DNA of 16,030 nt from a bacterium. Its GTDB lineage: Bacteria > AUK180. A program made the position numbers and the translations under genes. How positions within the stretch are numbered: position 1 is the stretch's first letter; the number at the start of each line of letters is the position of its first letter. The notes under the pieces are model-generated. The model worked only from the letters and a program-made list of their open reading frames with translations. It was not told where the DNA came from and searched no databases. The stretch lies in the NCBI GenBank assembly GCA_030622125.1, contig JAUXGM010000039.1, positions 1 through 16,030 on the forward strand. The letters are read 5' to 3'. This document shows, piece after piece, positions 2,207-16,030 of the stretch.

Positions 2207-5200
2207 TTATTTGATCTCAACTTCCCATTCCATCATTTCTTTCAGTTTCAAAAGAGCGATTTTAAAATCCGCATATTCATTCGGCGGAACCTCACGCTTT
2301 TTTATTCGTATCCGGTAATTCACCGTGATCATTTTATCACTATTTTTCTTTATATCCAATTTAGCGGAAAATATATCATTATCAATAGGTGCATAGGTCG
2401 GGAGGTAAGCAAATTGATAACTTTCATCCAGTTTAAAGATCGTCGTTGCCTTCGTATTTGTTTCTGCCGGTAACAGCATCGGTGCCGTTATTGCTTTTTG
2501 AGTTCCGTAACTATCATAAAGTGAATATCTATTTATGAAGGGTCTAAATCTTTTATTATGCTTATTTACAAAATCTTCAATCGTCAATTGATACGAATAA
2601 TCAACCTTTTTGCTATCAATATCCGAAAGCAATTTGATATTGTCAACCTTCACCTTTGGGAAGACCGATGACCAGAATTGTTGAAGTGATTCCCGTGCCG
2701 TATCAAGATTATCGAGAAGATGTCTCGCTTCAAAAGCAGCGTTTCCCTCCTTAATAAGTTCTCTCTCTGCATTTAAACTCATATCACCATTTATGATGCA
2801 GCTATTTTTAATGGTAATCAAGTTATTCTGCTCGGGATTGTTCGTTATCTTCTTAAAATGATATGTCCTATTATCTATTTCATAAGCTAAGCCGTCCGTC
2901 AGATTATGAGGGACCTCCCATGGTAATCCCCAGTCAACGGTACCATCTACAATATATGGAAGCCCGGCGGGAGAATAGACGGTTAAAACGGCATGGTTGA
3001 ATATTGTTAATATCGGTAGGGTTTCAACCGAACCGATATCCCTTGTTCGGACAAGTGTAATATTTGATCTGATGCCGGCAAGATCAAAGAAGACCTTCAT
3101 CAATGTTGCCTTATCCTTACAATCACCGTATTTTTCTCTGATAACCTTTGAAGGAAATCTCGGTTGATAGCCGTTCAGCCCATATTCAATTCCAAGATAG
3201 TGTATCTCCCTTGATACATATTTAAAGATCGCCTCAACTTTTTTTTCAAAACCGTTCTGTTCGTCTATTTTCAATTCTTTATAGACTGAAATGATCTTTT
3301 TATTGGGTTTCAACCTCTCTTTAAATAAACTATAAACCCATTTGTAGACCTCATTCCAATCTTTGAATGTTGAGATAACAAGATATTTTCCATACTCCGA
3401 ATATGGGGCAATATATGGAAAAGAAACGATCTGCCTTAGACCATTGAATTGCCATTTTACATTTTTAAATTTCTCTCTTATTTCTATATCGGAACTATTT
3501 TTCGCATTGTAAAGTTTATAGTAGACCTTTTTATTTTTCGGTATTATCAATAGATAATCTTTTTTCAATGCAGGAAATTGATTTTGAATAAACTCCACCT
3601 GCCCCGGAAATTTACCCTTGAAGGTAAAATTCGAATACTGAATTATTCTGTATTTGAGATAAATCTTTGAACCGACTTGAAGATTATCGATAAATATAAT
3701 GAATTTTTGGAAATCAGAATAGATATTACCATAGCTTTGGACAGGCTCGGAATAATGTTGGGTTATAGGAAATAGAGTTCCATCCGGTGATATAACGATT
3801 GCCTTATCAAGCTCCACATACTCAGATGATGATGAATAATAGATCGGATAGTAACTCAATTTATCTATTCCCGAAATTTTATTTACATAGAACAAGCCCT
3901 CATAGAATTTTGTTGTACTGTTGGATTCATTAAGCTCGATTATATTTTTCTCATAGAGTTGGACTACATCCGCATCTTTTGCATAATCCGGTAGTACCAC
4001 TTTGTCTTTAATATTTAGATTTTTTTTCTCATAAAGTGTCCTGGCAATGTCCTTTTTTTCAGTAAGTTCCGCAACAAGATCAATTGCATTTTCATCCTGT
4101 GGTTTCCACTTTAATATCTCTTTTAATTTCTCAACCGCCTTATCCTTATCGTCTTTTATCAGATAATAATCTGCCTCAAGCCGTAATGCATCAATACTGT
4201 AAATGAACCTCCTATGAATTTTTTGTATTATTGATAGAAATTTATCATATTTCTTGCATTTTAAAAGTAGATCGGCATATTGAATATAGTAATATTCACT
4301 AAAAGGGCTTAATAAAAGTTTGTTTTTCGCAATCCCGAAGACTAATTTATTATCTGCAATATTTAGAGTATCAAACCTGCTTTTGATAGCATAAGAAATA
4401 TCAAAGTATGAATAAGGGTATCTCTCCAAAAAATTGCCGAAGTATATCTCCGTTTGCTTTTCATTTTTATTATAAATATCTTCGAATATATTGTCATAAA
4501 GCCGTCCGTAGTATTTTTTTTCTTTTATTAGATCAAAAAATTTCTTATATCGTTTGTCCCAATTTAAACCATCTATTATATTGATATATAATGCGGAATT
4601 GTAGTAATACCAGTTTTTTATTTTTTTAATATTTTGATATGCCAACTGATAATATCTACTGTTGTAAAACAGCTTTGCAGTTAAATAATTGCGAAAATCA
4701 CTGTAATCATTGTTGCTTATCTTATCATACCAAAATAGAGCATTATTATTATCCACCGAAAGTTCACCTAAAAAGTAGTAACCCCATTGAAGATCATTAT
4801 CATCTACGATCTTTTTTATGGTATTAAAATCCTTTTTCTCTTCCCGATTGAAATTTTTCAAATATCTTAGGGCAATTCCATATAAAACGGTCTCCTCAAT
4901 ATTCTTCGGAACCTTTTTATCAAAGAGAAGATCGACCTCCGAATAGAGAAGATCACCTTTCTTCTTATTGCCTATATCCTCATCCTTTAAAAAGGAAATT
5001 CTTTTATCGAAACTTAATTGAAGCTCCCAATAATCCTCTTGATTTCCGGTAAATATCTTCAGGGAATGTATTCCCCCTGTCAATTTGGCATTTATTTTAT
5101 AACAAAAACTCCCCTGCTGGTTCAATACCTCTTTTTTAAATACTTCCTTATCATCTATTTTTATCAATATCCCATCGGAAAATGAAAAATCTATTTGGTA

Positions 5201-5764
5201 TGTCCCATCCGAATCAACCTTAAAGTTGTTTCTTATCCTTGCACGGGTAAATTTACTCTCATTTAAGATATCCGACGGATATATTTTTGTATAAGGGAAA
5301 TCAACATAATGTTCGGTTACCATCTTGTTCTTCCCAAGTATTCGACCATCTTCCTTTGTGATCTCATCTATCTGTGAAAAATCACCGTAATCAAGAGGTC
5401 CTAAAATATAAAAATCTTTCATTATACCCAGATCATCAAGGATCTTTTCATCTAAAATACCTTTTTTCCTTTCTAAATAGAAAAGAAAATACTTTGCTGC
5501 CTGCGTATTTTGAGCCCTTAAAAATCGTTCAAGCTCTTCAAATCCAACCTTATAGGTAGAAACAATATCATAAATCCTATTTATTGCAACATATCTCTTT
5601 AATTTATCATTATTTTGATCATAATAATTTTCCCACAACTTTATTGCTTTTATCATATCGCCTTTCAACTCGGTTTTCAGTATAGTATTGAGATCGGCAG
5701 CAGTTTCACCGATAATGGAAAGCACAAATAGACCGAATATTAAAAATACCGTCAATCTTTTCAT
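2207..5764 (-). CDS. Large exported TPR / DUF3857 / transglutaminase-like protein with intact catalytic triad
   Basis: This is a 1185-residue protein with a signal peptide (residues 1-23, MKRLTVFLIFGLFVLSIIGETAA). In order it has: a beta-rich segment at about 165-250 (FSDGILIKIDDKEVF) resembling a PA14-like lectin fold; TPR-like helical pairs, clearest at about 500-575 (LKEILKWKPQDENA); a DUF3857-type beta domain at about 615-740; a transglutaminase-like core at about 830-945; and a C-terminal beta-rich domain like DUF3858. The core keeps the Cys-His-Asp triad: YGDCKDKATL with Cys882, FNHAVLTV with His924 and IVDGT with Asp940. Members of this fold cleave or crosslink amide bonds; the substrate here is unknown, and export implies the periplasm or envelope. 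Its ATG overlaps the upstream paralogue's stop by one base (TAATG), with GGAG seven nt before, so translation is probably coupled. It is the last gene of the ompH operon. Confidence 0.88.
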   Translation of the reverse strand: MKRLTVFLIFGLFVLSIIGETAADLNTILKTELKGDMIKAIKLWENYYDQNNDKLKRYVAINRIYDIVSTYKVGFEELERFLRAQNTQAAKYFLFYLERKKGILDEKILDDLGIMKDFYILGPLDYGDFSQIDEITKEDGRILGKNKMVTEHYVDFPYTKIYPSDILNESKFTRARIRNNFKVDSDGTYQIDFSFSDGILIKIDDKEVFKKEVLNQQGSFCYKINAKLTGGIHSLKIFTGNQEDYWELQLSFDKRISFLKDEDIGNKKKGDLLYSEVDLLFDKKVPKNIEETVLYGIALRYLKNFNREEKKDFNTIKKIVDDNDLQWGYYFLGELSVDNNNALFWYDKISNNDYSDFRNYLTAKLFYNSRYYQLAYQNIKKIKNWYYYNSALYINIIDGLNWDKRYKKFFDLIKEKKYYGRLYDNIFEDIYNKNEKQTEIYFGNFLERYPYSYFDISYAIKSRFDTLNIADNKLVFGIAKNKLLLSPFSEYYYIQYADLLLKCKKYDKFLSIIQKIHRRFIYSIDALRLEADYYLIKDDKDKAVEKLKEILKWKPQDENAIDLVAELTEKKDIARTLYEKKNLNIKDKVVLPDYAKDADVVQLYEKNIIELNESNSTTKFYEGLFYVNKISGIDKLSYYPIYYSSSSEYVELDKAIVISPDGTLFPITQHYSEPVQSYGNIYSDFQKFIIFIDNLQVGSKIYLKYRIIQYSNFTFKGKFPGQVEFIQNQFPALKKDYLLIIPKNKKVYYKLYNAKNSSDIEIREKFKNVKWQFNGLRQIVSFPYIAPYSEYGKYLVISTFKDWNEVYKWVYSLFKERLKPNKKIISVYKELKIDEQNGFEKKVEAIFKYVSREIHYLGIEYGLNGYQPRFPSKVIREKYGDCKDKATLMKVFFDLAGIRSNITLVRTRDIGSVETLPILTIFNHAVLTVYSPAGLPYIVDGTVDWGLPWEVPHNLTDGLAYEIDNRTYHFKKITNNPEQNNLITIKNSCIINGDMSLNAERELIKEGNAAFEARHLLDNLDTARESLQQFWSSVFPKVKVDNIKLLSDIDSKKVDYSYQLTIEDFVNKHNKRFRPFINRYSLYDSYGTQKAITAPMLLPAETNTKATTIFKLDESYQFAYLPTYAPIDNDIFSAKLDIKKNSDKMITVNYRIRIKKREVPPNEYADFKIALLKLKEMMEWEVEIK

Positions 5765-8700
5765 TATTTAACTCCTATCTTTAAAAGTGCCGCCTCTTTT
5801 TTATCCACCATAGTCGATTGGATGAGAATCTTGGTTAATTGACTCGGACTGTAAACATTATTCTCAATTTTTACCGTTCTCCGCACATTATACCCGTCAT
5901 TTACCTTTGAAATAGTGAAATGATAGTCAAAGGCACCGGCTATTTTTTTCTTATAATCCACCGTCTTTATTTTTTTAGTGGTGATAATATGAAGATTATC
6001 CTCCTGTAGTAATATACCATCTACAAAAAGCGGCATTACTCTCGGATAGTCCACGCCATAAGTATTTGATATAATCAATGGTTTTATCGGAAGATCGTAT
6101 ATCTCTCTCCCGCTTTTTTTCAAAAAACCGCCTTTTACGGAAATTGTGAGTTCATCATTGTTTTTTACTACATCTGCATCAGCAGTATCAACCTTAATGT
6201 ATGGAAATATCGTTCCTACGAATTGATTAACTATCTTCTCTTTTGTTTCGGCATCGAAAAAATATGTCTTATAGCTTGAATATGCCCCGATAAATTTAAC
6301 CTTAACATCTATGCTCTTATTTTCTAAGTCCCACACATAATCTATCTTTAAACCTGAACCCGTCCCAACGGAAAATTCCTTATTTATTGAATAATCCCTT
6401 CCGTTTTCCGTCATATAAGCAATTTTAATTTTACCGCTTTCACCACCAAACGGAATAAAAGGACTGCTGAATGTTGTCAAAATATTTTTTTCTTTATAAT
6501 TTAGAAGTATCCCCTGTCCATCTATTTGTCCGGGAAAGAATCTTTTGATCTCTTTGTTTCCGAAACCTGAAAATATAACAAATTTATTCGGTATCCGCCA
6601 ATAATCAAGTGCTGCTTTAAATATTCTTATTTTATCAAGTGGTCCGGCTTTTTTCGTTAATATTATGTTTAGTAAACTTTTATCCGAATCGGATGAGGTA
6701 TCCTCGGTATAATTTACTTCAAGATCATCGTATATGTCTATCATCTTTTTTTCTTTATCACCGGCAAAAGAATCAAAGTATTGTTTGATCTTAGAACCTA
6801 AAAATTTATCGGTAAATATTTCGTTATAAAAATTCTGCAAATATGTAGAAGGAAGCAACTTGGATTGAAGAATGATCGCTGTTGTAAAAGTATATGGATT
6901 CGGTATCCCTTTTTCCTGCTTTACCCTTTTTAAATTTTTAGCAGAATACAAATAGGTTCTATATCCCTTTAACACACTGCTTTTTGAATGTTCTTTCAAA
7001 ATATAATTTCTGTGTATAACGAATGGCTTCAAGTCAATTGCCTTCGGAATATCAACCTGAACCTTCCATTTTTTTATAGGATAAGTAGTTAATAATGTTA
7101 TCGGAGTTATTCCCGTATAGTAGATATTTAAAAACGGTCTTGAATAGTATCCGATTGTTGCATATTCTATAACCGAGCCAACCTCAAGTCCCTTTAATGA
7201 AATTTGATCCTTATTTGAACTATGGAAATAGTATTTTTTTCCATCGGAGTTTTGAATTTTAATAAAAATGGGATTACCGCCCGGAGTAAAATTTGTCAGA
7301 GCACCCACTCCTTTTTGATCATTTACTCTGATGATCCCATAATCAATCCTTCTGTATCCAAGATCCTTGAAAAAGGTTAATCGTGTTTTTTGATCTACAA
7401 TTTCAAATGGATATTTCTCCGTTTCATCAATAGTTCCCAATTTATCAGGTAATACCGGTCCAAAGATCTCATAGTCCTTTTCATCATCAATAGAAGCAAA
7501 TTTTTTAAGCATTCTATTTTTTATTTGCTCATATTCCGCATATTTATTTTTTTTCAAGTAATGCTTACATAAGAGATCATAATAATCACTGTTTTGCGGA
7601 AATCTATTTATCATATCAAGATAGACCTCTTTAATATTTTCCATTCCGTCATAGCCGCTTGCAGACAGTAATATCATAAGATCATATTTAAGGTCTTTAT
7701 TTTTTATCGTTTTTACGAAATCATAGGCTTCATCATATTTATGAAGAGATATAAGATAATTTAATTTCTTTGATATGAAATCCTCACTGAATATTCCAAC
7801 TTCTTCTATTCCGGCTAAAAGCTTTCCCATTTTAGAACTATCAAAATAATTTGAAAAATTATTATATAAATTGAGAACGGCAAGATCACTTACGTGATCC
7901 CTCACCTTGTTGAACAGGTATTTGGAAGCATAATTTTCAAGCCCCTCATCATTTCTTATGTTGGCAATATAATTGAAAAGAAAGATATTATTGCTATTCG
8001 GTTCAAGTTTAAGCAGATACTTTTTTGCCTCCTTTTTATTGCCGTTTATCATATAATTTTTTGCAATAAAAAAATCGGCAATATAATTATCATCCCAATT
8101 AAGCGTTGAGTTAGTGTAATAATTATAGGCATAATCCGAAAACCCTAAGATTGGAAATCTTTCACAAACAAAGCCGGCAAAAAATGAATATATCGGAGAA
8201 TCACTCTCCTTTAAAAGACCGGATATCATATTAAATGACTTGATACCGTTACCGTAATTCATAAAAATATTTGCAAGTTTAAATTCCGCCCTTTTTACTA
8301 CCATTGAATCCTTGAAATGATCTTGAATATCAACAACCTTGCAACTGTTTATCTTCCCTTTTTTAAAATTACCCTGCATCGGCAGGTAATAGTTACCTTT
8401 TTCATCAAAGAACTGGATCATAAATCCGAGATTGTTATCTTCCAAATAGTAGCCCTGTAATTCGTTGGATGCATCGATCTTTAAGAGTATCGTATGTTCA
8501 CCTTTTTTGACATCTATTTCAATTATTTTTTTTACAGAAGACGAGAGATCCATATATCTCTTTTCACAAACGAGCTTTCCATCAATAAACAACCGATAAG
8601 GAAAAGATGAAGCAGTGTTGATGTAGTATCTACCCGAACTTTTAAAGTTAACTGAATTTAGAAAGTAAACGATCCCGAATCTCTTATTATAGATACGGGA

Positions 8701-9294
8701 AAGATCAACCCAGCCATTTGAATTTACATTAACGGGATATGGTTTTTGTTTTCCGTAGAAGGTTGAATATTCCTTATCTATTTTCGGAGATTTTTCAAAA
8801 TCCAATCTATTTTCAAAATCAAGTATCCCGTCTTTTATAAAAGGTCCTATACAGTAATATTTATCAAGATAACCATATTCATCACTATTAAATGTGTTTA
8901 CATTCAATTTGTCAAGGATTGAGATAACATAGTTTGAATCAATATTAAAAACAATATCATTTACCTTCGATTGTTTTTTCTTAAGCAATTCCTTTAATTG
9001 TTCTTTATAAACCGATAGTTGATAGCTCTCCGTAAGATAGAACATTGAAAATTCCAAATTTAACGGTTTATTACCAAGTTCAATTGCTTTGAGAAAGTAT
9101 TCCGCACTTTCCTCATCACGCATATCCTTGTAAATACCATACTCAATATAACTATCTGCTGATGAAAGCCCTTTTTCCTTTGTTTCGGCAAGCAATGTGC
9201 TGAATGAATTTCCGAAAATCGCTATCTGACAAAAGGAAACTACAAGGATACTAATCCATATCCGTAATATCTTTTCCAAGAATGATCTTGACAT
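5764..9294 (-). CDS. Large exported TPR / DUF3857 protein with degenerate transglutaminase-like domain
   Basis: This is a 1176-residue paralogue of the next gene, with the same order of parts: an N-terminal hydrophobic export segment (about residues 9-28), a PA14-like beta segment at about 200-290 (YRLFIDGKLVCEKRY), TPR-like helices at about 330-620, a DUF3857-like domain at about 640-735, a transglutaminase-like region and a C-terminal beta domain. The catalytic centre is gone. Where the paralogue has YGDCKDKATLMKVF this protein has KKAGPLDKIRIFKA (Pro-Leu at about 886-887), and GILLNYKEKNILTTF, in the region holding the paralogue's His and Asp, has neither. It is therefore predicted to be a non-catalytic binding or scaffold partner. 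Two ATGs stand in tandem (9297 and 9294); the second is chosen because AAAGGAG lies six nt before it. The gene starts inside the LCP gene (44-bp overlap) and its stop overlaps the next start by one base. Confidence 0.85.
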   Translation of the reverse strand: MSRSFLEKILRIWISILVVSFCQIAIFGNSFSTLLAETKEKGLSSADSYIEYGIYKDMRDEESAEYFLKAIELGNKPLNLEFSMFYLTESYQLSVYKEQLKELLKKKQSKVNDIVFNIDSNYVISILDKLNVNTFNSDEYGYLDKYYCIGPFIKDGILDFENRLDFEKSPKIDKEYSTFYGKQKPYPVNVNSNGWVDLSRIYNKRFGIVYFLNSVNFKSSGRYYINTASSFPYRLFIDGKLVCEKRYMDLSSSVKKIIEIDVKKGEHTILLKIDASNELQGYYLEDNNLGFMIQFFDEKGNYYLPMQGNFKKGKINSCKVVDIQDHFKDSMVVKRAEFKLANIFMNYGNGIKSFNMISGLLKESDSPIYSFFAGFVCERFPILGFSDYAYNYYTNSTLNWDDNYIADFFIAKNYMINGNKKEAKKYLLKLEPNSNNIFLFNYIANIRNDEGLENYASKYLFNKVRDHVSDLAVLNLYNNFSNYFDSSKMGKLLAGIEEVGIFSEDFISKKLNYLISLHKYDEAYDFVKTIKNKDLKYDLMILLSASGYDGMENIKEVYLDMINRFPQNSDYYDLLCKHYLKKNKYAEYEQIKNRMLKKFASIDDEKDYEIFGPVLPDKLGTIDETEKYPFEIVDQKTRLTFFKDLGYRRIDYGIIRVNDQKGVGALTNFTPGGNPIFIKIQNSDGKKYYFHSSNKDQISLKGLEVGSVIEYATIGYYSRPFLNIYYTGITPITLLTTYPIKKWKVQVDIPKAIDLKPFVIHRNYILKEHSKSSVLKGYRTYLYSAKNLKRVKQEKGIPNPYTFTTAIILQSKLLPSTYLQNFYNEIFTDKFLGSKIKQYFDSFAGDKEKKMIDIYDDLEVNYTEDTSSDSDKSLLNIILTKKAGPLDKIRIFKAALDYWRIPNKFVIFSGFGNKEIKRFFPGQIDGQGILLNYKEKNILTTFSSPFIPFGGESGKIKIAYMTENGRDYSINKEFSVGTGSGLKIDYVWDLENKSIDVKVKFIGAYSSYKTYFFDAETKEKIVNQFVGTIFPYIKVDTADADVVKNNDELTISVKGGFLKKSGREIYDLPIKPLIISNTYGVDYPRVMPLFVDGILLQEDNLHIITTKKIKTVDYKKKIAGAFDYHFTISKVNDGYNVRRTVKIENNVYSPSQLTKILIQSTMVDKKEAALLKIGVK

Positions 9295-10384
9295 CATATA
9301 CTCCTTTGTTTTCTTTCAGGTATGTAAGTTTAATATTTAATGCATCTGCTATTTTTTCAACATCGGCATAATTATTCGTATAGTTAATGAGCACACTTTT
9401 TTCGTAATCCATTTTATCGGCATTCCTGATGGAAATCACATCATACCCAAGCCTTCTGACCTTCTTTGCGATCTTTTCGCCTAACCCGGGAACACCGTTG
9501 CCGTTTAATATTTCAACCAATAATTTTGTGCCTTTCTTCTTCTCTTTAAATAATGAATTGAAATCTTTCGATCTATCGGGGATCCAATAACTTCCCCTAT
9601 TGATGATCTCCGATCTACCGGGAAGTGTTCTCATTTTCATTTTATTCATATCTATCGTTCCTATTAATTTTTTCAAAAAATAGACCTCTTTAAATGTGAA
9701 ATTGGACTTTAAATTCGCTAAAATTAGGCTTACTACCTTTGAATTGTTTATAAAATCGTTCAACGATGCCTTGCTTAAAAGAGAATTAATAAAATCTTTC
9801 TGCCTCTCTATTCTACCTATATCCCCCCTGCCGTCACTCCTGTATCTTACAAATTCAAGGGCGCTTTTTCCGTCAAGATGATTTACATTTTTCTTGATAT
9901 CTATCAGCAACTTGCCGTTCTTATCAAGATAATACATATCTTTGGAAACATAAATATCAACGCCGCCGATCATATCAATTATTTTTGCAAAGGTATTGTA
10001 ATCCAATATGATATACCTTGTAACATCAATATTAAAATTGCCCTTTATAACTTGTTTTAATCTCTTATATCCAAGCTTTATTCCGCTTTTTACATAACCT
10101 CTTGAAAAAACGGTATTTATCTTTTTGAAATCCCCAAGATAGTTGATCCTTGTATCTCTCGGTATAGATAAAAGATGAACATGTCCTTTTTTGTCAATAT
10201 GCCCGATAATGATCGTATCCGCCCTTGATATATGTTCAACGGAATCAAGCCCTAAAATAAGAAAATTGAAGCTCCCTTTCTTTTTTATCATTTTTTCGAT
10301 CTCTGTTTTTGCAAGTAACTTATAGGTAATGAACCCGATTGCCAAAATAAGGATGAGCATTATTATTTTAGTATATTTTTTCAT
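9251..10384 (-). CDS. LytR-CpsA-Psr (LCP) family protein with LytR_C domain
   Basis: This 377-residue protein has one N-terminal membrane anchor (residues 6-24) and an outward-facing LCP domain. Family motifs are all present: FLILGLDS (41-48), SRADT (53-57), SIPRDT (73-78), GGVDIYV (140-146), LDGKSALEFVRYR (170-182) and GDIGRIERQ (187-195). The conserved Arg and Asp residues bind the pyrophosphate of the lipid-linked substrate. LCP enzymes transfer glycopolymers from undecaprenyl pyrophosphate carriers onto the cell wall or a similar acceptor. Residues 286-371 (LLVEILNGNGVPGLGEKIA) form the C-terminal LytR_C domain. The start overlaps the end of the yqeK-like gene by 17 bp, and its own end overlaps the next gene. 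LCP proteins are best known in Gram-positives, so the acceptor in this apparent diderm is open. Confidence 0.93.
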   Translation of the reverse strand: MKKYTKIIMLILILAIGFITYKLLAKTEIEKMIKKKGSFNFLILGLDSVEHISRADTIIIGHIDKKGHVHLLSIPRDTRINYLGDFKKINTVFSRGYVKSGIKLGYKRLKQVIKGNFNIDVTRYIILDYNTFAKIIDMIGGVDIYVSKDMYYLDKNGKLLIDIKKNVNHLDGKSALEFVRYRSDGRGDIGRIERQKDFINSLLSKASLNDFINNSKVVSLILANLKSNFTFKEVYFLKKLIGTIDMNKMKMRTLPGRSEIINRGSYWIPDRSKDFNSLFKEKKKGTKLLVEILNGNGVPGLGEKIAKKVRRLGYDVISIRNADKMDYEKSVLINYTNNYADVEKIADALNIKLTYLKENKGVYDVKIILGKDITDMD

Positions 10385-12000: not shown

Positions 12001-12032
12001 ATGGGGACGGTGGTAGAAAAAGTAGAAAAATT
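12001..12032 (+). repeat. Left terminal inverted repeat of the RAYT element
   Basis: The 32 bases are the exact reverse complement of 12926-12957. They include two tandem copies of GTAGAAAAA (12013-12021 and 12022-12030). The last base is the first base of the transposase stop codon (as TCA on the plus strand, 12032-12034). The outer end lies 4 nt from the ompH ribosome binding site. Confidence 0.9.
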
Positions 12033-12883
12033 CAAAATTCATCTTTTAATATCTTCCCAATTGCGGATTTTTGATATCCAAAAAAACGAGCAATTTCGGA
12101 AAAATTATAACCGTATGCCACAAGTTCTTTAATAATTTTAATTCTATCTTCTTTTTTATTTCTATCCCATTTATATGCTAATATTTCTTTTATTTCAAAT
12201 CCAAACCTTTTTGCAATTGTTTGTGCATCAATTTTTATATTTCTTTTAGATAATCTCTTTTCAATAAACCTGCTTTTTTCTCTACCTTCATTTCGTTTCT
12301 CAAGTAAAAGATAATTTTCTTTACTTCCAATGCAATCTCTATAAACAGGATATTCAATATCTCCCGACTTCATAAATGCTACATATTTTTTCACTTCTAT
12401 GAATGCGGGTATTTTTTTTATGAGAATTAGATTCTCTTCTTTTTCTCCTTCATAAAATTTTGCACTGGAGTACTTATATTCACTCGGCATCTCTACAATA
12501 CCTGCTTTATCCGGGTTCAAATGAATATATTTTGCAAGATGCATTAAATAGATATCATCCAATACAATTTTTGATATGTATCTCCCTTGAAAAACATGAC
12601 CAACAAGGTTGTATTTATTATTAAAGTAAAGAGCATAATTTGTATTTAACCTTTTCATAAAAAGTTGAAGCGGATATTCATTTCTAAAAATATCAAAATG
12701 AACATGGTTTGTCATAAGACAATAAATATAAAGATCAATATCTGTTTCAGTTAATAACTTATTTAAAATTTGAAAATATTTTTCTCTATCTTCCGGTGAG
12801 AAGAAAATAGGGTTCTTCCTTTGCCCACGGCTAATCACATGATAGTGATAACCTTTTAAGTCTATTCTCGCTGGTCTTGCCAT
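12032..12883 (-). CDS. REP-associated tyrosine transposase (RAYT, Y1/HUH family)
   Basis: This 283-residue protein has the RAYT opening MARPARI...YHVISRG (1-20), the metal-binding HUH motif H60-V-H62 in MTNHVHF, and the probable nucleophilic Tyr119 in LAKYIHLNPDKAG, followed by EYKYSS (135-140). These are the hallmarks of single-strand transposases of the IS200/TnpA-REP superfamily. The C-terminal third (about 215-283) carries a helix-turn-helix-like region ending FSEIARFFGYQKSAIGKIL. All catalytic residues are present and the frame is intact. The family starts exactly at MARP, yet no Shine-Dalgarno sequence precedes this ATG; the promoter at 12889-12918 would start transcription at about the ATG, so a leaderless message is inferred. 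It is co-oriented with ompH and ends about 46 bp upstream of it. Confidence 0.93.
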   Translation of the reverse strand: MARPARIDLKGYHYHVISRGQRKNPIFFSPEDREKYFQILNKLLTETDIDLYIYCLMTNHVHFDIFRNEYPLQLFMKRLNTNYALYFNNKYNLVGHVFQGRYISKIVLDDIYLMHLAKYIHLNPDKAGIVEMPSEYKYSSAKFYEGEKEENLILIKKIPAFIEVKKYVAFMKSGDIEYPVYRDCIGSKENYLLLEKRNEGREKSRFIEKRLSKRNIKIDAQTIAKRFGFEIKEILAYKWDRNKKEDRIKIIKELVAYGYNFSEIARFFGYQKSAIGKILKDEF

Positions 12884-12888
12884 AATTT

Positions 12889-12918
12889 ATTATAACATAT
12901 TTTTTACAATTTTTACAA
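12889..12918 (-). promoter_or_regulatory. Predicted promoter of the RAYT gene
   Basis: On the minus strand TATAAT (12889-12894) is preceded after 18 nt by TTGTAA (12913-12918). The latter lies inside one of the 9-bp tandem repeats, so the repeat itself supplies the -35 element. The expected start of transcription falls at about 12882-12883, on the initiation codon. Confidence 0.5.
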
Positions 12919-12945
12919 TTTTTACAATTTTTCTACTTTTTCTAC
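12901..12945 (+). repeat. Five phased 9-bp units at the right end of the element
   Basis: Three copies of TTTTTACAA (12901-12927) are followed without a gap by two copies of TTTTTCTAC (12928-12945). The last two belong to the terminal inverted repeat; the first three are specific to the right end. They differ by a few bases at the same positions, suggesting expansion of one unit and divergence. Confidence 0.85.
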
Positions 12946-12966: not shown

Positions 12967-12995
12967 TTGACAATAATGGAAATATTTCTTATAAT
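12967..12995 (+). promoter_or_regulatory. Consensus sigma-70 promoter of the EIIA/antiporter operon
   Basis: TTGACA (12967-12972) and TATAAT (12990-12995) are separated by exactly 17 nt: both hexamers match the consensus fully. The predicted start near 13002 leaves only about 13 nt before the ATG at 13016, just enough for the GGAG ribosome binding site at 13005-13008. Confidence 0.8.
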
Positions 12996-13015: not shown

Positions 13016-13468
13016 ATGAAATTGATCGACATTTTAGAAGAAAATGATATTGCATTTAACAATGATCTTACAACAAAGGAAGATATACTTTTCTTTCTTG
13101 CAAAGCAATTGGAAAGTAATGAAAAGGAAATAAAAGGACTTTTTGGGGTTTTTAAAAAACGAGAGGCGGTAGCTTCAACAGGGATCGGTCATGGTATTGC
13201 AATTCCCCATGCAATATGTAAAGAATTTCCCGGAATAAAAGCAAAAATAATCATTTGTAGTAAGGGGATAAATTTTGAAGCCGTTGATTCAAAGCCCGTT
13301 TACATCTTTATTGGAATTGCCGCAAACATTGAAAGACAAAAATCCTATTTAAGCCTACTTACAAATACAGCAAGAATATTTTCAGGTAATGAACTTCTTT
13401 CTACCATCTTAAAAAAAGATAAGCCGAAAGAAATTATTAAAATTATAGAACAGCAAAGCAGATTATGA
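13016..13468 (+). CDS. PTS EIIA-2 domain protein, EIIA-Ntr (PtsN)-like
   Basis: This is a 150-residue stand-alone EIIA of the fructose/nitrogen type. The phosphorylation motif STGIGHGIAIPHA is at residues 54-66, with the phospho-accepting histidine at His65. The length is that of PtsN and no EIIB or EIIC is nearby, which argues for regulation rather than sugar uptake. Established work in enterobacteria shows EIIA-Ntr controlling potassium transport (TrkA, KdpD). Here the gene is first in an operon with a PII-like protein and two antiporter-fold proteins, so control of ion transport by phosphorylation state is inferred. It has GGAG 7 nt upstream of the ATG, and its last codons overlap the next gene (ATGA). 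Confidence 0.9.
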   Translation: MKLIDILEENDIAFNNDLTTKEDILFFLAKQLESNEKEIKGLFGVFKKREAVASTGIGHGIAIPHAICKEFPGIKAKIIICSKGINFEAVDSKPVYIFIGIAANIERQKSYLSLLTNTARIFSGNELLSTILKKDKPKEIIKIIEQQSRL

Positions 13469-13791
13469 TTGGAATTATTATTGTTTTAAAAAAAGAAGAA
13501 TTATTGGACGATATCCTTTCTGCTTTTGCAGAGCTGGAAATTTTTGATGTGAGTATTCTTGATGGAAATAATTTAGAAGGAATATTGGAGAAGGATCTAC
13601 CGCTTTTTGCCGGTTTGTTTGTATCAACAAATAGAAAGATGCTCTACAATAAATTTATTTTCGGCGTTTGTAGAGAAGAAGATGAATATAACGATCTTAT
13701 AAAACTTTTTAAAAAAAAGAAAATAGATTTTACAAAAAATAATACGGGGTTTATCACTACATTCAAATTAACCGACTTCATAGGAGAGTAA
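13465..13791 (+). CDS. Small PII-like (ferredoxin-fold) protein, putative regulator
   Basis: This 108-residue cytoplasmic protein begins MIGIIIVLKKEELLDDILSA, a beta strand followed by a helix. It continues with VSILDGNNLEGIL (29-41), LPLFAGLF (45-52), NKFIFGVCREED (62-73) and NNTGFITTFKLTDFIGE (92-108). The beta-alpha-beta plan and the phrases ILD-x-N and xNKxIF..., with a closing G-x-x-T-x-x-x-x-D-x-x-G, resemble small PII-like proteins that trimerise and sense nucleotides or ions; this assignment is by remembered pattern and is moderate. It overlaps the EIIA gene by 4 bp and is followed after 3 bp by the first antiporter-like gene, so it probably acts on the same transporter. The PII T-loop with its uridylylated Tyr is not recognisable. 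Confidence 0.6.
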   Translation: MIGIIIVLKKEELLDDILSAFAELEIFDVSILDGNNLEGILEKDLPLFAGLFVSTNRKMLYNKFIFGVCREEDEYNDLIKLFKKKKIDFTKNNTGFITTFKLTDFIGE

Positions 13792-13794
13792 TCC

Positions 13795-14835
13795 TTGATA
13801 GTTAAGTTTTCATTGCTGATATCATTTATCCTTTTTCTTGCATTTATTGATAGTCAGATCGGCTATTTAAAAATAAAAAACAGCGGCATATCCTATATTC
13901 TAAGAACTAAGATCCATTTTTTAATCATTGGTTTTCTTTTAAAGGGAGTAATTTTCAGAGAGGGACTCTATCCGTTTTTTACAGGTACCATTTATGTAAT
14001 TATCGGTTTTATGGGCTTTTTATTTGGATTTCAACTTCGGGAAAAATTTATTAAAAGGTTAAATTCCAAAAAAATGATCGAAATATTATTAAAGGGTTTT
14101 TTCTCTATAATACTTGTTTTCTTTATTGCCTATTTTCTATCTCAAAATATTTATATTGCCGCACTGATCACCATTTTTTCAACATCTATTTCTTACTTTT
14201 TCCTTTTCAAAAAAGACGACAATGCCGTTCCTGTTTATATTTTTAATCTATTGGTGATCTTTCTTTTTATATTTGTCGTTGAAAATCTTTATATTCCGAT
14301 TAAATTTGTTTTTTTAAAATTACTGCTATCATTTCTGTCTGCATACCTTATCTATTTAGCAATTGGGAAAAGAGAAAAGGTAGAAATATATATAATACTG
14401 ATCGGTTTTCTATTGTTGCTTTCCGGAATAGCAAAGGAATTATCCATTTCAAATCTAACATTTTCCTTTTTTGTAGGTTTTATTATTACAAATTTAAAGT
14501 TCCCATCAAAAGTTAAACTTGAAGAAACAATGCTAAAATTAGAAACCCCGCTCTTTTCATTTCTTCTTTTTATGATGGGCTTACTGATTACACGACCATC
14601 TACTTTTTACTTGATTGTGATCGGTATATTTGGGATAGCAGGACTTCTTATTCGTGGACTTCTCTATGGTAATTTTAAGTTTCAGATCCCAATCTCGCAG
14701 ATATCCATTCTATTTATCGTTGATTTTATCGGAATGTTCTCAGGGGAATTCATTACCTCCTTTATTATCATCTATCTTATCTCAAATCTACTTATTTTAG
14801 TAACAGGTAAAAAAAATGATTACAAGGTATCTTAG
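13795..14835 (+). CDS. Diverged CPA2-antiporter-like integral membrane protein
   Basis: This 346-residue protein consists of about ten or eleven hydrophobic helices. Family-like stretches are IGFMGFLFGFQLRE (70-82, compare the CPA2 'GL..LLFLVGLEL' helix) and LSISNLTFSFFVGFIITN (216-233) followed by LETPLFSFLLFMMGLLI (249-265), the usual late-core layout of KefB/NhaS4-type carriers. The helix that should hold the ion-binding Asp (about 145-162, VPVYIFNLLVIFLFIFVV) has no acidic residue, so transport activity is doubtful. The start is TTG at 13795, 8 nt after GGAG at 13783-13786; the next in-frame ATG (residue 73) is inside a helix. The gene ends 20 bp inside the following antiporter gene. It may be a regulatory or assembly partner of that transporter; this is inference. 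Confidence 0.7.
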   Translation: MIVKFSLLISFILFLAFIDSQIGYLKIKNSGISYILRTKIHFLIIGFLLKGVIFREGLYPFFTGTIYVIIGFMGFLFGFQLREKFIKRLNSKKMIEILLKGFFSIILVFFIAYFLSQNIYIAALITIFSTSISYFFLFKKDDNAVPVYIFNLLVIFLFIFVVENLYIPIKFVFLKLLLSFLSAYLIYLAIGKREKVEIYIILIGFLLLLSGIAKELSISNLTFSFFVGFIITNLKFPSKVKLEETMLKLETPLFSFLLFMMGLLITRPSTFYLIVIGIFGIAGLLIRGLLYGNFKFQIPISQISILFIVDFIGMFSGEFITSFIIIYLISNLLILVTGKKNDYKVS

Positions 14836-16030
14836 TTTCTCCTTATTAGCCATAATAATAGCGTTAATGGCTATCCTTAGTGTTCCGTCAAATATATTTT
14901 TAACTCTTGGTTTTATGGTAATTATTTCCTATTTATTAGGGGAGATTTTCGATCATTACAAATTACCAAAGGTTTCCGGATATCTTCTTGTCGGTATTAT
15001 TTTAGGACCGTTTGCACTCAATTTTATAAACATTGAGAGTGCCCTTTCTTTGCAATTCATTGATATGATCACCCTTACTATCATTGCTTTTGTTGTGGGT
15101 AAGGAACTTTCAATAAAAAAATTTAAAAAAGACCTAAAGATAATTATTACCTACACCTTTATCGTTATTTCAGCCACCTTTTTCTTTATGACATTATTTT
15201 CGTACATTATTTACCGTTTTTACCCTTTTATTGGGGAATTACCACATAAAGAAATGGTTATTGTTGCTTTGATCTTTGGTTTTTTAGCTCTTGCAAAATC
15301 TCCTCTAACTACGGTTGCTCTTATGAAAGAGACCAATGCCTATACGAGAACGCCAAGATTAATATTATCTATCACCGTGTTAAAAGATATTATCGTGCTC
15401 GTTGGCTTTGCACTTTTTATGTCGATTCTAAAAGCAAAGGAATTCGGCACAACGGGAAGCCATTTAATTTTCGGAACACTGTGGGAGATATTCGGTTCAT
15501 TTTTGATCGGCTTCGTAATCGGGATGCTCTCCCTACTCTATTTAAAGCATATTAAAGGGCAAAACCTGCTTATGCTGCTGATCCTTGCGATCTTTATAAG
15601 TATTCTCTCTGAGAAACTGCACATAAATAATCTATTGGTCGCAATATCGGTCGGATTTATCATTGAGAATTTTTCTGATCTCGGTGATGAATTTTTAACC
15701 AATGTTGAGATCATATCAACCTTTATCTATATCCTTTTCTTTTCAATAAGGGGGGCAAACCTTGATCTTGAAGTAGTCAAAAGAACCTACTTTATCAGTA
15801 TTCTGCTCCTTGTTTTAAGAACTATCATAACCTATTTTGCTTTACGATTTGCTTCAAAATTGCAAAAAGATACTCCATGGATATATAAATACGGCTGGAG
15901 CGGTTTTATAAATCAATCGGGAGTTACGCTTGCCATTGCTTTGATAATAAAAAACAGTTTTCCGCGATATGTAGATATTGTTGCCATATCCATTTCTCTC
16001 ATAGTAATTACCGACATATTGGGTCCCCCA
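14816..16030 (+). CDS. CPA2 family cation:proton antiporter (KefB/NhaS-like), partial
   Basis: The frame is open from ATG 14816 to the window end (405 codons), with the C-terminus missing. CPA2 hallmarks are: YKLPKVSGYLLVGIILGPFA (48-67), AFVVGKELSIKKF (91-103), LALAKSPLTTVALMKE (157-172), SITVLKDIIVLVGFALF (185-201) carrying the probable ion-coupling Asp191, and GWSGFINQSGVTLAIALII (360-378), equivalent to the family's 'G...RGE' helix though the usual Arg-Gly-Glu is replaced by Asn-Gln-Ser-Gly. It is predicted to exchange Na+ or K+ for H+ across the cytoplasmic membrane. The last visible residues (TDILGPP) belong to the final core helix, so a further C-terminal domain such as TrkA-N/RCK could follow beyond the window. 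It overlaps the preceding gene by 20 bp. Confidence 0.9.
   Translation, partial: MITRYLSFSLLAIIIALMAILSVPSNIFLTLGFMVIISYLLGEIFDHYKLPKVSGYLLVGIILGPFALNFINIESALSLQFIDMITLTIIAFVVGKELSIKKFKKDLKIIITYTFIVISATFFFMTLFSYIIYRFYPFIGELPHKEMVIVALIFGFLALAKSPLTTVALMKETNAYTRTPRLILSITVLKDIIVLVGFALFMSILKAKEFGTTGSHLIFGTLWEIFGSFLIGFVIGMLSLLYLKHIKGQNLLMLLILAIFISILSEKLHINNLLVAISVGFIIENFSDLGDEFLTNVEIISTFIYILFFSIRGANLDLEVVKRTYFISILLLVLRTIITYFALRFASKLQKDTPWIYKYGWSGFINQSGVTLAIALIIKNSFPRYVDIVAISISLIVITDILGPP

Follow-up and report, generated by a model that had tools for sequence, protein, structure and literature searches.

An EIIA protein, a PII-like protein and an unequal pair of CPA2 homologues: a candidate metabolically gated ion antiporter in uncultured bacteria

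The stretch of DNA considered here, referred to as the window, is a whole contig of 16,030 nucleotides (JAUXGM010000039.1, contig C141 of the genome that we call G000) from a bacterium of the lineage AUK180, and belongs to a 2.08-Mb assembly (GCA_030622125.1) of 192 contigs that is approximately 96% complete. On its forward strand, positions 13016-16030 harbor four tightly packed open reading frames, which encode in turn an EIIA protein of the phosphotransferase system (PTS), a PII-like protein (PIIL), and two homologues of the cation/proton antiporters (CPA), herein termed subunits A and B (Table 1). We describe this operon as a candidate for an ion transporter under metabolic control. An original prediction, made from the letters of the window, had held that the four genes overlap or lie within 3 bp of each other and share one consensus promoter, and both statements are borne out. 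The successive junctions are -4 (an ATGA overlap between EIIA and PIIL), +3 (PIIL to A) and -20 nt (an overlap of A and B), and the predicted sigma-70-like promoter ahead of EIIA is the sole perfect match in the region; promoter-like matches overall occur at chance frequency, hence the perfect one alone is notable. Subunit B is cut by the end of the contig and apparently continues on contig C155 of the same assembly, where identity is 93% across residues 274-405, followed by IFKLHLLKIKEKEENK. Neither PIIL nor subunit A of the window has a match in Pfam or NCBIfam, and no Rfam family or tRNA gene was detected in the window.

Table 1. Features of the EIIA-PIIL-A-B operon, with positions in the window unless another contig is named
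Feature	Position	Strand	Evidence
Predicted sigma-70-like promoter, TTGACA-17-TATAAT	12967..12995	+	12/12 consensus positions, 20 nt upstream of EIIA ATG
EIIA, PTS family EIIA-2, 150 aa	13016..13468	+	PF00359, E 8.4e-23
PIIL, PII-like protein, 108 aa	13465..13791	+	AlphaFold2 (AF2) model, Foldseek and VIA matches, homologues above PF00543 cut-off
Subunit A, diverged CPA homologue, 346 aa, TTG start	13795..14835	+	Profile of A proteins from other families, A clade, motif tables
Subunit B, CPA2 antiporter, 405 aa to contig end	14816..16030 (cut)	+	PF00999, E 1.2e-32; B clade; motif
Likely C-terminus of subunit B	G000:C155, L025:6004-6450	-	93% identity overlap

The EIIA of the window scores 81.4 bits against PF00359 (cut-off 27) and retains its phospho-acceptor, His65, within the motif GIAIPH (CAT codon at 13208-13210). 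The active-site histidine is found in 54 of the 55 EIIAs of the wider module described below that cover the site, the exception being an asparagine in G225 (L106). Against TIGR01419, the PtsN equivalog, the window protein reaches 49.6 bits, below the cut-off of 138.7, and it is therefore named EIIA rather than PtsN; the earlier label of EIIA-Ntr was loose in this respect, although the EIIA identity and His65 both stand. G000 and its six nearest relatives each harbor one EI and one HPr gene, which adjoin one another (at G000:C107 in the case of G000), and none of these genomes contains an EIIC of family PF02378, with the provisos that other EIIC families, such as those for mannose and sorbitol, were not searched and that G000 is 96% complete. 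The presence of EI and HPr without such an EIIC makes a regulatory phosphorelay onto EIIA plausible. Judged from its sequence, EIIA is thus phosphorylatable in principle and probably regulatory.

Other EIIA proteins occur in quite different settings. A second EIIA of G000 (contig C39; L038:214-4720) comes directly after the genes for V-type ATPase subunits B and D and a 145-aa protein, and precedes a BPL/LplA ligase and pantothenate kinase; this context led us to reject its assignment as a classical ptsN beside hprK. EIIA-2 domains are also found at the C-terminus of APC amino-acid permeases of about 615 aa (L156:1201-3048, L157:1830-3686, L164:2111-3943), and many of the genomes that carry PIIL have EIIA-bearing frames of 613-632 aa. 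Further EIIA-2 fusions involve an octopine-dehydrogenase-like protein (L165:1636-3237) and a family 2 glycosyltransferase (L158:982-2505).

A family of PIIL homologues was gathered from relatives. As a sequence search of the PDB with the PIIL profile returned only weak PII matches, the fold was tested by structure. The AF2 model, built from a three-sequence input (mean predicted local distance difference test, pLDDT, of 77), has the element order beta-alpha-beta-(helical T-loop region)-beta-alpha-beta, and all of the 50 best Foldseek matches (E about 1e-4) and all 50 VIA rows are PII or PII-like proteins. The best VIA matches are PotN (Z 9.5) and SbtB (Z 9.3), but several PII-like families are ranked together by both programs, and PIIL is accordingly assigned to no single PII-like subfamily. 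Although the window PIIL itself has no PF00543 match, relatives from other families pass the cut-off of 25 bits (L064 with 36.7, L066 with 30.2) and L063 lies just below it. The modeled fold of PIIL is that of a PII protein, in keeping with the PII-like identity first proposed for this small protein. In the family consensus the T-loop region is PIFAGL, and PGTGILF stands where GDGKIF would be, leaving neither the GlnB uridylylation motif nor the GDGK (B-loop) motif; PIIL is for this reason termed PII-like and not GlnB or GlnK. A 445-aa secretin-like protein matching the PIIL profile (L067) is a false positive and was excluded. Orphan PII-like proteins also exist, away from any CPA2, Mrp or ClC gene, several of which share the same context in different genomes; they are encoded beside phosphoglycerate mutase (L062, L081), MlaD/MlaE (L064, L077), TatC (L078) or a HAD phosphatase (L065, L100).

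The two antiporter homologues differ markedly from one another. In the motif scheme of Masrati et al., positions 6 and 7 form the 'DD' of transmembrane helix 5 (TM5) and position 8 is a Lys/Arg on TM10; D7 (D164) is essential and present in 94% of CPAs, while D6 together with K8 is the mark of electrogenic CPA2s (PMC6181914). The single CPA2s found in the modules conform to this pattern, with D6 in 48/48, D7 in 48/48 and K8 in 45/48. The B proteins all retain D7 (15/15) and all lack D6 (0/15) and a Lys/Arg at position 8 (0/15), with position 6 occupied by Lys in 12 of the 15 and by Gly, Ser or Arg in the others. Among the A proteins, D6 is kept in 11/16, K8 in 13/16 and D7 in only 3/16. Subunit B of the window scores 113.7 bits against PF00999 (cut-off 26.2) and, cut as it is at the contig end, 46.6 bits against the CPA2 subfamily model TIGR00932 (2a37), for which the cut-off is 238.3. 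Its TM5 carries Lys190-Asp191 (codons 15383-15388), giving K6-D7 with no TM10 Lys, and its TM4 reads AKSP, which places a second Lys in the TM4 crossover in the family of the window.

Subunit A of the window has no PF00999 match, whereas several other A proteins do pass that model. A profile built from the A proteins of other families does find it (E 1.8e-11), as does, more weakly, one of single CPA2s (1e-7), and its hhalign probability against the A proteins is 97.5. D7 is absent from the A proteins of the window, G001 and G004, and no DD or x-D site can be recognized in TM5 of the window protein, where the alignment is uncertain. An AlphaFold model of subunit A built from three sequences reached a pLDDT of 40 and was not used. 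In a maximum-likelihood tree, which has flagged long branches with that to the window A among the longest, the 16 A proteins form one clade (support 100/99) and the 15 B proteins another (100/100). The same pattern was seen in five further genomes that had been held out: D7 is absent from 5/5 A proteins, and 4/4 B proteins have D7 without D6 and K8. PIIL lies upstream in four of these five genomes, with an EIIA in both of those whose contig reached far enough. By these sequence comparisons A and B are an ancient unequal pair, in which A is a diverged CPA homologue that has mostly lost the ion-binding aspartate. The original description of paired antiporters was therefore right in that B is a CPA2 and A a CPA homologue, but is probably wrong for A as an antiporter in its own right, which looks transport-dead. 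Tandem CPA2 arrays are also found without EIIA-PIIL, in the arrangements A-B-B (L151:3972-8091), two CPA2s (L153:4181-6510) and B-B (L154:4287-6724), and suggest that unequal CPA2 pairs are wider than the EIIA-PIIL module.

A PIIL profile found matches in 66 of 386 broadly sampled genomes, and genes were called in the DNA around them, giving 78 PIIL places in 48 families. This sample is not wholly independent, as some loci were found first via CPA2 and the profile seeds include CPA2-linked proteins. A CPA2 gene lies on the same strand within 2 kb at 54 of the 78 places (33 families), an EIIA is fused or adjacent at 53 (31 families), and both are present at 43 (24 of the 48 families), in varied gene orders. 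For scale, 40 of these genomes (about 114 Mb) contain around 126 EIIA-2 and 95 Na_H_Exchanger matches, such that the chance of either an EIIA or a CPA falling in a 4-kb neighborhood is about 0.3-0.4% per PIIL place. EIIA::PIIL fusions are known from nine families, nearly all beside a CPA2, and in three genomes a CPA and an EIIA share one polypeptide. Frames of the latter kind (L160:1314-3785, L161:1368-3842, L162:1623-3701) have an N-terminal Na_H_Exchanger domain, some 140-320 intervening residues and a C-terminal EIIA-2 domain. EIIA-PIIL is also encoded beside Mrp (MnhE and following genes; L075, L076) and beside ClC-CBS (L066, L082), so the sensor pair appears to follow ion transporters of unrelated families; at L061 a PIIL without EIIA precedes Mrp.

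The exact order EIIA-PIIL-A-B is conserved in ten surveyed genomes of seven families, in agreement with the expectation that relatives would share the gene order. The carriers are G000, G001 and G004 of the same family (f1), G149 and G284 (f145), G111 (f107), G210 (f183), G225 (f190), G317 (f232) and G336 (f243), and in G034 a weak PIIL is followed by A and B. A scan of genome contigs with a CPA2 alignment, chosen as no part of the full PIIL alignment was sufficiently conserved, matched only the three metagenome-assembled genomes of the same family. Modules with two ordinary antiporters (L037, L097, L099, L128, L083) are distinct from the A-B pair.

Taken together, we consider it probable, if some way from certain, that the operon specifies a metabolically gated ion antiporter, an A-B heterodimer with a transport-dead, regulatory A, under the control of EIIA and PIIL. 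Gene linkage, homology, the predicted fold of PIIL, the motif pattern and the presence of EI and HPr are seen directly, and from them we infer the A-B dimer, transport, the ion, the ligand and the direction of control. Subunits A and B would form an unequal dimer of the CPA2 fold, in which B, holding the ion-binding aspartate, would be the transporting subunit and A, lacking it, a docking or regulatory protomer. The single EI-HPr pair of the cell would pass phosphate to EIIA, and EIIA would bind the cytoplasmic face of the dimer and inhibit it when in one of its phosphorylation states, presumably the unphosphorylated one if PtsN-YcgO is a guide. A PIIL trimer would report a second signal, probably an adenine nucleotide, with its T-loop acting on the same cytoplasmic face, in the manner of GlnK with AmtB and SbtB with SbtA. 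The supply of phosphoenolpyruvate (PEP) and the nucleotide signal would then jointly set the rate of antiport; a gating of Na+ or K+ flow, as first suggested, is putative. A Lys next to the ion site, as in B, could shift the stoichiometry, render exchange electroneutral or alter the substrate.

A number of observations weigh against this interpretation. From the Asn of the G225 EIIA, phosphorylation does not appear to be universal, and with the classical uridylylation and GDGK motifs missing from PIIL its nucleotide ligand is putative. The Lys in the ion site of B may signify a changed or lost transport activity. Subunit A of the window is highly diverged and its TM5 motif columns are aligned with little certainty, and three A proteins (L108, L132, L146) retain an Asp at the aligned D7 site. 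The parts of the system are also separable: there are A genes that have no B (L146-L148), B genes that have no A (L027, L154) and A-B pairs that have no EIIA-PIIL (L029, L145), and among the held-out genomes L167 has an A with no PIIL found upstream. Finally, at 19 of the 78 PIIL places, about a quarter, genes for CPA2, Mrp and ClC are all absent within 2 kb.

Some of these observations would suit an arrangement in which EIIA and PIIL are dedicated regulators but A and B do not form a heterodimer, each being a homodimeric transporter in its own right, or A a paralogue in decay. Structurally characterized CPA antiporters are reported to work as homodimers, A and B can occur separately, as noted above, and four of the modules with two ordinary antiporters (L037, L097, L099, L128) carry DD proteins in tandem. 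We nevertheless regard this arrangement as doubtful, since A, an ancient clade, has been retained immediately ahead of B in 10/10 EIIA-PIIL-A-B operons despite the loss, in most, of its ion-binding Asp; plain decay would not preserve its remaining motif residues, such as K8, and the A/B overlap in the window suggests translational coupling. It is unlikely, to a degree clearly beyond this, that A-B is no longer a cation/proton exchanger and that the solute it carries under this control is a different one, for example an anion. The prevalent Lys at position 6 of B, the uniform absence of K8 and the AKSP of TM4 would all be in line with such a change, and the PII-like SbtB controls an anion (bicarbonate) transporter (PMC8352866), but the residue essential for cation/proton exchange, D7, is kept in every B protein, the four held-out ones included. 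Slightly less likely again is that the shared operon reflects co-expression only, with EIIA and PIIL acting elsewhere, for example on transcription or another transporter. In favor of this reading, EIIA-2 is fused to partners as diverse as the permeases, dehydrogenase and glycosyltransferase noted above and a PRD regulator, and at 13 of the 78 PIIL places there is neither an EIIA nor a CPA2, Mrp or ClC nearby. Against this stand the linkage across 24 families in differing gene orders, the EIIA-PIIL and EIIA-CPA fusions, and the recurrence beside Mrp and ClC. An operon assembled by chance or artefact is ruled out by its recurrence.

Beyond the heterodimeric antiporter favored for the window, a more general proposal may be advanced tentatively, at somewhat less than even confidence. 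The A-B proteins would represent a widespread, undescribed heterodimeric class of CPA2, composed of a dead A and an active B in which Lys has been lost from TM10 and gained beside the TM5 Asp, and governed by a dual switch of EIIA phosphorylation and the PII-like protein; EIIA-PIIL would be a portable cassette, attached by different lineages to CPA2, Mrp and ClC. The prospect that A-B constitutes a new antiporter type is a realistic one. In the open-access full-text literature we found no description of a joint EIIA, PII-like and antiporter module or of a heteromeric (heterodimeric) CPA2, and we know of none elsewhere. The exact composition, for which the original prediction knew of no described system, represents one form among several of a much wider module. 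If these proposals are correct, the ion circuit of many uncultured bacteria would be tied directly to PEP/pyruvate and nucleotide state, and PTS control of antiporters, so far represented by PtsN-YcgO of Escherichia coli, would be extended to a widespread genetic unit. The pair would also represent a natural experiment on the working of CPAs, with the ion-binding Asp and its Asp-Lys neighbors split across two proteins, and its conserved motif pattern leads to testable predictions on electrogenicity and on what the second protomer of the dimer does.

The remainder of the window contains several further features. A lone IS200-like (Y1) transposase-type protein is encoded at 12032-12883 on the reverse strand, divergent from the operon, and a TTTTTACAA repeat tract lies upstream of this gene at about 12900-12935. 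Two adjoining genes on the reverse strand (2207-5764 and 5764-9297), downstream of a LytR-CpsA-Psr gene, encode very large proteins of 1185 and 1177 aa, which are possible paralogues.

Antiporters regulated by an EIIA and transporters regulated by a PII-like protein have each been described, separately from one another. Direct control of an antiporter by an EIIA has a proven precedent in E. coli, where YcgO, a K+/H+ antiporter, is bound and inhibited by PtsN in its unphosphorylated form and bound less well by PtsN once phosphorylated (PMC11808508). PtsN (EIIANtr) also controls TrkA and KdpD (PMC13104625). As proposed for the module, an EIIA of the same Pfam family acts there on a monovalent cation/proton antiporter, downstream of an EI-HPr type phosphorelay and with no need for a sugar permease. 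YcgO, however, is a CPA1 whose C-terminal domains are RCK/CorC-like, PtsN acts globally, and there is neither a PII-like protein nor a second antiporter-like subunit. In the SbtA-SbtB and AmtB-GlnK systems, a PII-fold protein is likewise encoded beside its transporter, with SbtB among the best structural matches to PIIL, and the SbtB T-loop inserts into a cleft of SbtA (PMC8352866). These systems have a single sensor and no EIIA, their transporters are a bicarbonate symporter and an ammonium channel, and the window PIIL, unlike their sensors, is without canonical PII motifs. With respect to the CPA2s of the NapA/GerN type, the single-copy CPA2s of the modules share the D6-D7-K8 signature (PMC6181914) and A and B are homologous to them; the CPA exchangers that PMC9408914 reviews are each the product of one gene. 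In contrast, the A-B pair is unequal, with B lacking D6 and K8 and A mostly lacking D7. KefC-KefF, KefB-KefG and Mrp resemble the module in being antiporters with encoded partner subunits. To our knowledge the Kef partners are not CPA homologues, and Mrp has no sequence relation to CPA2; EIIA-PIIL pairs are even encountered within Mrp operons (L075, L076).

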